From Diplonema papillatum (Eukaryota; Euglenozoa; Diplonemea; Diplonemida; Diplonemidae): 64,000 nucleotides of DNA. Location: contig JAPJBO010000411.1 in NCBI GenBank assembly GCA_030068145.1, positions 124,001 to 188,000 of the forward strand, written 5' to 3'. Shown here one piece after another: positions 538 through 64,000 of the stretch. The number at the start of each line of letters is the position of its first letter. Position 1 is the first letter of the stretch. The notes below the pieces were generated by a model. That model searched no databases, had not been told where the DNA came from, and saw nothing but the letters and a program-made list of their open reading frames with translations. The position numbers and the translations under genes are program-made.

Positions 538-2560
538 CGAGGTAACCGCCAATCAGCCCACGGTAATCAGCCCGCGGTGGGTTTGCAAGACTTGATTAGC
601 TAGCTGAGGAGCATTCGGAACGGCAGCAGGACACCACGTCGAAGGTTCGATCAAATGAAGGCAGCAGGTGGACTTCTTCCAAGCACGCTCTTGCAGTTGT
701 CCCTCCCATCTTTTCCCGTGGTACGCGGCCACGCAAATCCTTCGACAGCAATGGCTTTCCAGCAAGTTGTCTCAGCAGAAGGGAGTTTGCATGATCGCGA
801 GGCTTTTACGTCTGTGGGTCGACCTACCGACTGATGCAGGCCATCGCTACAGATCTTCTGCATTCCAAGCCTCAAACGATCTCGGCACACCGTGGGTTAT
901 CACGGAGGCGATGGACCGGCTTGGTATGATTCATGCTGCTGCTGCTGCTGCTGCTGCTGCTGCTGCTGCTGCTGCTGCTGCTGCTGCTGCTACAGCAGAC
1001 GATGGTCGCCCCCCCGGATCCTAAAGCAAGCGAACTTCACTCTAAAAGAAGGATCCGTTTGGAAAAGGAATCCTCGCCCCGTCTCTCCATGCCGTAGATT
1101 CTCGGGTTCTGGTTCTGGTCCCGCCGGGGGTCACTCGTCCGAAGATTGCTACCTCCCGACCCATAACGAACTGCAACTTATGGCTTCTCTCCTCGAAGTA
1201 CTTGTTCTTTGCTTTCGCTTGCCCCGCCTAACCCACTCACTTGCTTGCTGGCGTCTCGAGGCACCACGGAATTGTTTCGAGCACACGAAAACCCATCGGC
1301 ATGCTTGGTTCTTGCGTTGGAGATGCGTTCAAATCTTAATCAGAAGCTGAAGTTCCCCATCAAGCCGCCGCCGTAGGCCGACAGCGGTCGGGTCGCGAAT
1401 AGCGAATCGCGAATCGCGAACAAGCACAGTGGCGGAAAGATGCGAAGAACTTTGAAAAGAGGGTTAAAAAGTCCCTGAAACCGATGAGTGTAAGAGTTGG
1501 AGATGCGTTCAAAATCTTAATCATTGCTCCTTCGCTGGGGTTTACGGTTGAGACGTCTGGACCTATTCGGATTGTCCAAGCTTCTGGCTGCCTCAGTTTT
1601 GCTCGGATCGAAAATCTTGATCATTGCTCCTTCGCTGGGGTTTACGGTTGAGACGTCTGGACCTATTCGGATTGTCCAAGCTTCTGGCTGCCTCAGTTTT
1701 GCTCGGATCGACCAGGATAGGAATGAGTTGAGGAGGTGAACCGCGGCATCGTCAGCGAAGGGTAAGTGTCGGCGTCTTCGGACAACGTCCTTGCTCCCGC
1801 TGGCCTGACGTGGTTAAACGCTCGCAGGCTCGTGTCAGACACAGCGATCTTCTACTACCCGTCTTGCAACACGGACCAAGGAGTCTAACACGTGTGCGAG
1901 GTTTAGGGTGTCAAACCTGGAAGGGAGATGTGCCAATCCTTGAGGTTAAACGCTCGCAGGCTCGTGTCAGACACAGCGATCTTTCTACCACCGACGAGTG
2001 CGTTCGGCCCAGGCTTTCCGTGCCCCACCTATGGGGTCTGCCCTTCAAGTTCTCCATGCTGGAGCAACAGTTCTTCGCCGTAAACTGTATGCGTCAGCAG
2101 CCGAAGCGTTCTTCTTTCTCGTTGTGAATACCATAGGGAAGAGAGGGGGGAAAATCGGGGGGTGGTGGGCAGGGGTATTATGTACCCCTGCTCCTTTCCC
2201 CGTTATGTTTTTTTGCGTTCTTTGTTTTTCTTCCCCCCTCCTCCCGCCTCTCTCTCTCGACTGACTGTTTGTGCTTTTTGTTCTTTTTTCTTTTCGAGAT
2301 GTTGCAATCATGCAAGCAGGGCCCGAGCTTTACCTGGCGAGGTTTTGGCCAAACTCGGTCAATGTCGGTCAGCAGTGGTAGTCTAAAATTAGCAAGCAAC
2401 GTCACCAGTAACGCGCCTGGGAACTTCAGCTGCACACGCTGCTTTGTTCACGGTGCATCAACCCGTCTCAGACCGCAAGGCGCCCTGTCACAGTGCTTCA
2501 TGCAGAAGTGTGGCTTCGGAGCGCCGGTTCTGCCTGCCGACACACTCCCAACCCATAGAT
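538..2560. other. Intergenic stretch with a triplet run and short direct repeats
   Basis: No recognisable gene. It holds a (TGC)n run at 934-991; a 100-bp direct repeat (about 1520-1619 and 1620-1715); a short repeat around GGAGATGCGTTCAAA at 1318 and 1498; a repeat around GGTTAAACGCTCGCAGG at 1809 and 1947; and a small inverted repeat around 2173-2190. Positions 836-874 carry one copy of the dispersed motif related to GATTATCGCCACAGATTC. Several open frames cross it, but all are driven by the triplet run or by repeats. Confidence 0.6.
934..991 (+). repeat. (TGC)n microsatellite
   Basis: About 19 uninterrupted TGC units. Depending on frame it would read as poly-Ala, poly-Cys or poly-Leu. No flanking coding signal supports translation. 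Confidence 0.9.
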
Positions 2561-3329
2561 ATTCTCATTTATTTTACATCATACGGGGGACAATCTCGGG
2601 ACAAACCCGGGAAACCTCCGGATGGATCACACCATTATAGGCAAAGTCAACTTACTCAGGAAACCGTAGGTGGGGAAGGGGACACCCTCCCAACCCCCGC
2701 AAACCCCCCACCTCACTGGTTGTTCTCATAGCACGAAAGAAGTTCAGTCTAGTAGAACTTTAAGTACACTACCACCTCCTCAGACCCCCTCCCAGACCGC
2801 GTGCTTACGCGCCCTGATTTCTATGCTCGAATGCGACGCGTGACACCCAGCTGCCCGCTGTGCCATGACACGGTCTTCCGCCCTGTGGTCCTGCCGTGCG
2901 GGCACGTTTTCTGCAAGGAATGCGTCGTCGCCCTCGACGAGCACGGCGCAGAGCGTCGCGAAGTGCCCGGTCTGCCGGCGGGTGCTGGAGCACCAAGAGA
3001 AACGCACGACAAAGCAATCCAACTAAATTTATTCATCATATATTATGGGGGACAATCCCGGGGCAAACTGGGGACAATCTTGGGACAAACCCGGGAAACC
3101 TCCGGATGGATCACACCATTATAGGCAAAGTCAACTCACTCAGGAAACCGTAGGTGGGGAAGGGGACACACTCCCAACCCCCGCAAACCCCCCACCTCAC
3201 TCGTTGTTCTCATAGCACGAAAGAAGCTCAGTCTAGTAGTAGTAGAACTTTAAGTACACTACCACCTCCTCAGACCCCCTCCCAGACCGCGTGCTTACGC
3301 GCCCTGATTTCTATGCTCGAATGCGACGC
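2560..3329 (+). repeat. About 470-bp tandem duplication upstream of the RING-LON gene
   Basis: The segment from the GGGACAATC-rich leader through GGATGGATCACACC, CACCTCACTCGTTG and the first RING codons occurs twice, at about 2584-2990 and again from about 3049 into the intact gene at 3329. The duplicated unit therefore contains the gene's presumed 5' flank plus the start of its coding sequence. Confidence 0.8.
2823..2999 (+). pseudogene. Truncated, broken copy of the RING exon of the RING-LON gene
   Basis: It begins with the same ATGCTCGAATGCGACG as the intact gene at 3313. A small insertion right after this creates TGA as the sixth codon. The zinc-ligand codons that follow (CPLC, CGHVF) are otherwise preserved. 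Similarity stops near 2990, in the last cysteine pair of the RING, before any LON sequence. It cannot make a RING domain from this start. It is the first example here of a truncated 5' copy sitting directly upstream of the complete gene. Confidence 0.75.
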
Positions 3330-62242: not shown

Positions 62243-62571
62243 ATACCGTACCGGCAACTGGATTACGACAAAGTGGATATAATCCACTTTGTCGCCTATT
62301 CCACTTCGTCGTTTTCTAAAGAAAAAGCACAAATCGTCGATACGACACCAATCTGTACACCCATACGGGATTGTTGGAAACGCAAAAAAATTAGTATGAC
62401 GCTTCCGTTTGTGTGTGCGCACTAGCGGCTTTTCACCTGATTTGGTGAGTTGCTTTTAGTACGCTGCCAACTACTAGTTTTTAGTACCAACAATGCATTG
62501 TTAACACAAGAAAGACGCACTTCCAAAAAATCCGGACACAGCGCGAAACCCTGGCGAAGCTGCCGGAGGAC

Positions 62572-64000
62572 ATGAAGACGGAGGAGTACCGCTACCGCCT
62601 CGCGACGCTGACCGCGCGGGAGAACAAGCTCGAAGAGGCGATCGAGGAGTGGGGCGCCCTGCTCCACGGCATGCTGGTCAGTGATGCGGACGGCGAGTCG
62701 TGGGCAGAGACCCGCCGGCGGATATCGGAGCTGCCCTTCGACACCCCGGAAGGGTCGGTGATGCGGAGCAACCGCATCCGCGAGACGGTGCTGCAGGACA
62801 TGATGCGGGCGTACGCCGCGCTGGATGACGGCCCCGGGTACATCGAAACGGTGCTCGTGGCCCAGGTGGTCGAGCCGATGAACAGCGGGATCCGGAAGTT
62901 CACCTCCACCTACATGGCGGCAATTCTCGACGTCGGCTCTGTGTGGCGTGGGTACATGCCGCAGCCCGGCGTCCGAATATCGAGCGCAGCGGACGTATTC
63001 GACAGCATCCTCGCCTTCTGCGCACAGCTGCCGGAGGCAGTGCACGTCGCGACCGAGCACGTGTTTTTGAAGCGGCTGCAGGATGGTGCTGTGGCACGCA
63101 TGAACGCAGAGTGTGGCACTTCCCTCAGCGGCGAGGCAGACGCCATCAAGTACAGAGACATGGCTTCCGCGATGGGCCGGTGCATGAAGAAGCAAGGCGT
63201 GATCGCGGAGTGGCAGCGGCTTGCTGGCATCATAGCAGAAGACCTCTCCGGGTTGCTCACGAAGGTGAACGAACGCACCGGATTTTCCCCCATGCACTAC
63301 CTTGCGACAATCGCCGACGAGGAGCTCCTTACCGACCTGGGCATCGGCAAGTATGACACGCCGTCATCCGACGCCACCCACTCCACCACTCCGGCCCACA
63401 TCTTCGCCCAGTACTCACCCGACACCGCAACCGCGCAGGTCCTCAGCGAACCGTCGCCGGCTGCACCGAAAAACGCGTTCGGCGCCCCGCCGCGGCTGCC
63501 GTGCTGGGCGGACCCGACCGCTCCCCGGTGCGAGGGGAAGCCGGACACCTCTGCGTTCGCGGATGCCGTCCACGAGGTCGTGAAGGCATACGTCCCGGCG
63601 AAGGAGTGGGCTTTCGTGGCCCCCGAGGACCTCACGGAGGAGGACCGGGCGGCTGACGACGAGCAGTTTATTCGTTGGGAAGAGCGGACGGGGTTCAACG
63701 CGGGCGTGTTCCTCCCCCGCCTCGCGAGGGACGGGCCGATGGAAGTGACCTACAAGACTCTCACGGCGGACGAGTTCGTGAGGGACTACGTGGCGGAATC
63801 CACCCCCGTCATCGCCCACCGCGCGTTGCCGAAGGACGAAGCGATCCAGGCCGACCAGCTCTCGCTCTTCGACTTCGCGAACATGGTGTCTATTTTGGAA
63901 TCGACCGTGCTGCCTTTCGGCACGCGGCTGCACCAGTCGCCCGTCAAATACGACGGACAGGCGTCGCTGATCGCGTTTGGCTACGAGCAGATGCGCCTGG
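62572..64000 (+). CDS. Large hypothetical protein, 3' end beyond window
   Basis: Open from ATG 62572 to the window edge (476 codons, no stop). The frame is open back to 62485, and ACACAG just before 62541 could be an acceptor, so the ATG may be internal to a longer protein. Residues 1-230 are helical (ENKLEEAIEEWGALLHGMLV; RAYAALDDGPGYIETVLVAQ; MKKQGVIAEWQRLAGIIAED). A Pro/Ala/Thr-rich linker follows. Residues about 395-420, VTYKTLTADEFVRDYVAEST then PVIAHR, resemble the entry into a JmjC/cupin-like domain, which would lie past the edge. Third unit of a tandem series; the two before it stop after about 80 residues. Function unassigned. Confidence 0.65.
   Translation, partial: MKTEEYRYRLATLTARENKLEEAIEEWGALLHGMLVSDADGESWAETRRRISELPFDTPEGSVMRSNRIRETVLQDMMRAYAALDDGPGYIETVLVAQVVEPMNSGIRKFTSTYMAAILDVGSVWRGYMPQPGVRISSAADVFDSILAFCAQLPEAVHVATEHVFLKRLQDGAVARMNAECGTSLSGEADAIKYRDMASAMGRCMKKQGVIAEWQRLAGIIAEDLSGLLTKVNERTGFSPMHYLATIADEELLTDLGIGKYDTPSSDATHSTTPAHIFAQYSPDTATAQVLSEPSPAAPKNAFGAPPRLPCWADPTAPRCEGKPDTSAFADAVHEVVKAYVPAKEWAFVAPEDLTEEDRAADDEQFIRWEERTGFNAGVFLPRLARDGPMEVTYKTLTADEFVRDYVAESTPVIAHRALPKDEAIQADQLSLFDFANMVSILESTVLPFGTRLHQSPVKYDGQASLIAFGYEQMRL

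Follow-up and report, generated by a model that had tools for sequence, protein, structure and literature searches.

Why should unrelated genes that lie close together each be bordered by arrays of pieces of their own beginnings and ends? This question is raised by a 64,000-nucleotide stretch of DNA from Diplonema papillatum (hereafter the window; contig JAPJBO010000411.1, positions 124,001 to 188,000 of the forward strand), in which an initial annotation had claimed front arrays for at least five unrelated genes and tail arrays for four. Self-alignment of the window established own-end copies in five genes: a RING-LON gene, an exon near 30.5 kb, a JmjC/cupin-8 gene, a SET-like gene and a signal-peptide/TPR-like gene. 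The 5′ flank with part of the coding sequence (CDS) is repeated upstream of the intact gene in RING-LON, JmjC, SET and exon 1 of the TPR-like gene; the exon 3′ end is repeated in the 3′ flank or intron of RING-LON, JmjC, SET and the 30.5-kb exon. Front arrays were found at four of the five genes claimed, the gene at 62.6 kb not being a separate one, and tail arrays at RING-LON, JmjC and SET but not at the Hrd1-like gene. In the front arrays the complete gene is the last unit, as had been proposed. We consider it likely that these arrays arose by local tandem duplications across a CDS or exon end that left the gene whole, the copies then decaying and becoming homogenised.

The analysed assembly comprises 271 Mb in 2910 contigs, and the window is C411:124001-188000. 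The diplonemid spliced-leader end had 624 exact matches in this assembly versus 0 for the reversed control. These matches place the window in the D. papillatum nuclear genome, for which repeat-bounded gene structures have been described (Valach et al. 2023, PMC10161547). Features below are on the plus strand unless stated otherwise.

The SET-like gene (51803..52810, ATG at 51803; PRDM2_PR match with E 0.0019, below the curated cut-off) is complete and is preceded by 12 truncated front copies with a period of 570 bp (44982..51802), of which 11 keep the ATG and the first lacks it. It is followed by a 195-bp array of 3′ flank beginning near the stop codon (52816..55125) and, past this array, by a copy of the final SET codons (55135..55221; 92% identity to 52706-52792), in agreement with the annotated order of 12 front copies, complete gene and own 3′-end copies. 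Among the ATG-bearing copies, the 55 pairwise comparisons show 0–6 differing columns (mean 2.3), and comparisons with the gene show 6–10; the units are closer to one another than to the gene, as unequal exchange predicts. Five columns are private to the intact gene, their changes being absent from all 12 truncated copies. Three of the 11 ATG-bearing units (u2, u7 and u9) have in common a 1-bp deletion, which shifts the frame, and a premature stop; two more variants are common to these three, u5 and u10. From this pattern, the units seem to have been re-amplified in blocks from one another rather than recopied from today's gene, and the coding content of the truncated copies is unprotected, frameshifted copies having been amplified anyway. 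Unequal exchange maintains partial tandem duplications of genes and satellite-like arrays, and the arrays described here resemble them in their similar inner units, decayed edges and block-wise re-amplification.

The JmjC/cupin-8 gene (40171..40992, ATG at 40171; complete, 273 amino acids (aa); Cupin_8, E 1.7e-32) is preceded by the three front copies annotated (38322..40170, period about 605 bp, identity 96.8–98.8%, ATGs at 38353, 38959 and 39565) and followed by decayed tail copies (41046..41915; 87% identity to 40767-41010), which lie at 41046-41399 and continue as shorter fragments to 41915. Two columns are private to the gene copy when compared with the array units, and the distal front copy meets a stop after 13 codons. 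The RING-LON gene (3313..5712; one open frame of 799 aa with Pfam matches RING and LON_substr_bdg) likewise has both arrays attributed to it: one truncated front copy of 5′ flank and first codons (2580..2987; 94% identity to 3064-3471), open for just 6 codons past its ATG, and many decayed 3′-end copies consisting of CDS from 5486 plus 3′ flank (5861..7715; 70–96% identity). The exon near 30.5 kb (30509..31007 from its putative start, within an open frame at 30468-31007; no match in a Pfam scan) is flanked on both sides by partial copies, as had been noticed: front copies at 28.3–30.2 kb with a period of about 500 bp, including a 79-bp subarray (28352..30299), and a tail copy (31234..31382; 80% identity to 30810-30986). 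The truncated copies in the window show no coding constraint. Nor are they joined to foreign tails, as had been thought; the tails are non-coding flank within the unit, which in SET and JmjC holds dispersed elements.

The signal-peptide gene and the gene at 62.6 kb, annotated as separate, are parts of one gene, since removal of a GT-AG intron (59703-62541) yields one uninterrupted frame of at least 585 aa. Exon 1 (59406..59702; signal peptide judged by eye) has two front copies (58409..59048; 97% and 94% identity; second ATG at 58904), both as predicted, one fuller and the other only partial. Exon 2 (62542..64000) is open to the window end, and TPR_30 weakly matches the spliced protein across the exon joint (E 0.0014, below cut-off). 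Because the 62.6-kb unit is exon 2, its two copies are not an independent front array but are intronic; they repeat the 5′ end of the exon (61354..62220; 98.6% and 97.1% identity), each with an AG acceptor, the acceptor copies preceding 61371 and 61952. Both truncated copies carry an early stop after the intact-looking acceptor, and exon 2 itself has 1 private column relative to them. The two intronic decoy acceptors amount to a natural experiment on acceptor choice during splicing.

Such decoys invite the explanation that selection keeps the arrays, either as decoy acceptors or starts in polycistronic processing or as a source of regulatory short RNAs. Front units do hold the start region and the units of the TPR-like gene an intron acceptor, and in D. 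papillatum co-transcription is thought likely and RNA interference machinery has been reported (PMC10161547). We nevertheless find this explanation very improbable: the truncated reading frames decay freely, and a published array is absent from mature mRNA (PMC10161547). The related proposal of the initial annotation, that the arrays are selected for the truncated transcripts they supply, is unsupported in view of the amplified SET frameshifts and the stops after 13 and 6 codons in the JmjC and RING-LON copies.

Gene-end arrays in D. papillatum are already known, and because PMC10161547 already describes them, the window result is a rediscovery. That paper reports repeat-bounded structures in dozens of manually curated gene models, in two forms: 5′ untranslated region (UTR) plus partial CDS repeated upstream, or the exon 3′ end repeated in an intron or the 3′ UTR. 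The array of its example DIPPA_19968, the one absent from mature mRNA, is supported by PacBio reads, and a published example has a unit of about 400 bp in 12–13 copies, with the outermost degenerate and the intact gene last. The window arrays are alike in genome, in front and tail repeats and in the terminal position of the intact gene. Sections 5, 7 and 9 of the paper propose no mechanism for them. The present analysis adds to that account a sampled frequency, an excess at CDS ends, intronic copies of an exon-2 front and homogenisation within an array. The PacBio support also bears on whether the arrays are assembly artefacts, that is, collapsed or mis-joined repeats. Repeats account for 52% of the assembly (PMC10161547), but the copies differ from one another in patterned substitutions and an indel, and we give an artefact hardly any credence.

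In the origin we favour, a segment of about 200–650 bp straddling a CDS or exon end (flank plus about 40–400 bp of coding sequence) would be duplicated in tandem beside itself. Such a duplication over one end would spare the gene, with front copies falling upstream, tail copies downstream and the joined unit staying whole. The array would then change in size by unequal exchange among its own units, and the outer units would decay by substitution and deletion. The annotation had suggested one shared mechanism, such as copying that stalls at gene ends. The sharing is supported by the same layout elsewhere in the genome, as described below and as published for the species (PMC10161547); special stalling is unneeded, because any tandem duplication across one gene end gives an order with the complete gene last. 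This geometry accounts for the copy order, but not for the scarcity, in the sample described below, of long-period duplications lying wholly in the abundant non-coding DNA.

To what extent do gene ends elsewhere in the genome carry such arrays? One hundred random stretches were drawn and the first 20, each of 10 kb (200 kb in total), were analysed. Tandem arrays with a period of at least 30 bp numbered 49 in 19 of the 20 stretches and occupied 17% of the 200 kb; the window has 26 such arrays covering 46%. Transposon-like open reading frames (ORFs) with reverse transcriptase (RT) or RNase H matches were left out before counting (L017, L018:149-6088, L019 and L027:8458-9999), the RT/RNase H match of L017 being below cut-off and L019 failing the composition rule described below in any case. 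Among 21 hand-listed non-transposon CDS blocks, 8 have own-end copies outside the CDS, in 10 arrays that all lie on the expected side, one with merely 68% identity. In 20 Markov surrogates generated from these stretches (200 kb), 0 comparable repeats were seen, and the own-end repeats are therefore not due to chance.

For the position of arrays relative to genes, CDS were called by a written ORF-composition rule (23 blocks), which replaced a gene finder that, with four genes of the window as its training set, proved too weak. A CDS end is crossed by nine of the 20 arrays with a period of at least 200 bp, where 2.04 would be expected (P=2.6e-5); this expectation excludes placements wholly inside CDS, and some periods in the set are long multiples of short units. 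Gene-end arrays in this 20-stretch sample are accordingly more frequent than random placement predicts, as the initial annotation would have it. Under relaxed filtering, 28 long-period arrays are counted and 9 of them cross a CDS end (2.62 expected, P=3.8e-4). Restricting the base period to at least 200 bp leaves 11 arrays, of which 9 span an end (1.6 expected, P=2.9e-7); removal of the two most arguable gives 7 of 9 (P=2.4e-5), and under a harsh expectation of 40% these two results have P=0.006 and P=0.025, respectively. Unlike the partial tandem duplications and satellite-like arrays mentioned above, those of D. papillatum are common and gather at the ends of a CDS or exon. From the excess, placement seems non-uniform, and the gene-end-specific element of the earlier idea survives.

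The plainest alternative is that tandem duplications fall uniformly, gene-end arrays being merely those that happened to cross an end and were tolerated. The presence of arrays in all but one of the 20 random stretches, a layout that follows from geometry, and flank arrays without own-end copies at 7 of 14 kinase loci (below) all favour it; 9 of 20 end-spanning arrays against 2.04 expected, and 9 of 11 at base periods of at least 200 bp, speak against it. We judge uniform duplication unlikely, but with so small a sample and such crude gene models it is still a serious contender. A tentative extension, which we hold with less than even confidence, is that most duplications of 300–650 bp are anchored in a CDS or exon by their inner breakpoint, with breaks or template switches starting in exons, and border thousands of gene ends with cast-off copies; purifying selection would spare those that cross an end, and some would leave intronic decoy acceptors. 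In the origin that we favour, too, breakpoints would begin preferentially in coding DNA, and selection would remove duplications wholly within coding sequence. A plausible cause might be GC-rich or transcription-linked breaks repaired via short homologies. At the SET junction, GCGATC occurs in both the unit and the CDS, and copies of the dispersed element have GCGACC.

Several points weigh against duplication across gene ends or against the excess. Microhomology was inspected at the SET junction alone, where the element copies fit 5 of 6 bases. The end-excess comes from 11–20 arrays in 20 stretches with ORF-composition gene calls, array positions were known before the composition rule was set, and the 11-array subset was picked post hoc, with one of the 11 mixing 116- and 538-bp periods. 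Unseen exons might move the counts up or down, and stop-to-stop ORFs can run past the true start; the front overlap in L031 is just 44 bp. In L015, L025, L031 and L032 the homology of 113–379 bp at a spacing of 288–530 bp does not form clean tandems, so later indels or spaced copying would be required. The gene copy of L014 is no clear outlier among its units (in a crude alignment cut at a fixed period), only 2 of 14 kinase genes have own-end copies (a front in L034 and a 75-bp tail in L041), and in Ras C292 the middle of the domain is copied upstream, which misfits the plain scheme. The analysed assembly is also smaller than the published one (6181 contigs, 280 Mb; PMC10161547), perhaps through omission of small contigs.

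The 14 kinase genes were chosen by rank (near-whole domain, stop-free open frame of 300–500 aa), skipping the like-scoring pair C1144/C1283. Of the others, 7 have flank arrays only, 4 have none, and L039 has a weak pair that was left uncounted (73%, 64 bp). Scans for further domains found own-end copies in 2 of 77 Ras clusters (front in C137, tail in C738), 5 of 52 cyclophilin clusters (fronts in C1278 and C304; tails in C221, C301 and C1430) and, clearly, 0 of 15 proteasome clusters, two being ambiguous (clusters counted by eye). The ambiguous loci C859 and C970 were kept out of the count, C348, C569, C16, Ras C61, C71 and C1847 were dropped as full or near-full domain pairs, and C262, C129 and cyclophilin C61 were dropped for an overlap of only about 20–30 positions. 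Together, at least 7 of 144 loci have own-end copies, a lower bound because only copies that score as domain fragments are detected. As in the random stretches, the copies counted at the kinase and domain loci are on the expected side of the gene. D. papillatum has about 32,000 genes (PMC10161547), and at 5% more than 1000 of them would carry own-end copies. Two loci seen in these scans have whole-domain copies in tandem: four cyclophilin copies with identical scores (G000:C71:103417-111267), and Ras-like copies with a period of about 1.3 kb, seven in number with a further partial one (G000:C1847:26-9309).

Dispersed elements next to genes might instead drive the duplication, copying having begun in the element. 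Units of both SET and JmjC contain dispersed elements: the SET unit beyond its cut holds an element present in dozens of places, and the JmjC flank contains an abundant one (576 first-look candidates, 40 scored). The JmjC-type element also occurs within or next to several window arrays, and in the arrays of L014, L021 and L032, which is suggestive only. It is absent, however, from the spanning arrays of L015, L025, L027 and L031 and from L029:38-1187, the SET element is a different one, and repeats are common in any case. An origin in such elements therefore appears improbable, if less so than maintenance by selection.

Two further arrays that the initial annotation had placed in the gene-end series proved to be of other kinds. 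The 53-bp array downstream of the Hrd1-like ORF (17094..17908) was rejected as its tail: no downstream copy of the ORF end (16300-16760) was found by self-alignment, and the 53-bp unit has only 11–16 bp in common with places outside its array. The exon-3′-end repeats described in PMC10161547 are accordingly lacking at this ORF. The 167-bp array (36564..37902, minus strand), said to fit the same order, was rejected as a gene end because its unit occurs with 99% identity in at least 39 other places (40 of 192 candidates scored); it is a dispersed repeat amplified locally.

Other repeats were also observed. One dispersed element, about 125 bp long and ending in an A-rich run, has 42 matches in the window and sampled sequence, with matches within one array not being independent. 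Its window sites are 15479-15549, 24033-24092, 29418-30487, 38850-40163, 58513-59318, 60704-60802 and 61224-61324, and it also occurs in L014, L015, L029 and others. Of the 36 matches in stretches with a called gene direction, 35 are on the gene strand and L020:3489-3426 is opposite, and 6 more have no called direction; it could be an element resembling a short interspersed nuclear element (SINE) or a processing signal of polycistronic RNA. A 31-bp array (43281-43562) is also largely self-complementary. A 119-bp array of 3.7 copies (27900-28345) resembles the sarcin-ricin region of 28S rRNA in antisense. Two large-subunit (LSU) rRNA fragments lie at 8243-8592 and 8779-8995, and about 3600 scattered 28S pieces are reported in this genome (PMC10161547). 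The sequence at 1612-1945 has an 89% match to a multicopy sequence at sites spaced about 7.6 kb apart. It was rejected as a long terminal repeat since this spacing fits the published ribosomal DNA (rDNA) unit of 7.6 kb (PMC10161547); it is perhaps rDNA-derived, and an Rfam scan gave no rRNA match there.

The small sample suggests that own-end arrays affect more genes than the dozens published and that they favour gene ends, and gene models in the D. papillatum genome may often be distorted by such copies. If the excess at CDS ends is borne out across the whole genome, this protist, which is haploid and can be transformed, would preserve evidence of where local duplications begin with respect to exons; it would also exemplify splicing that has to single out the true acceptor from decoys almost identical to it.

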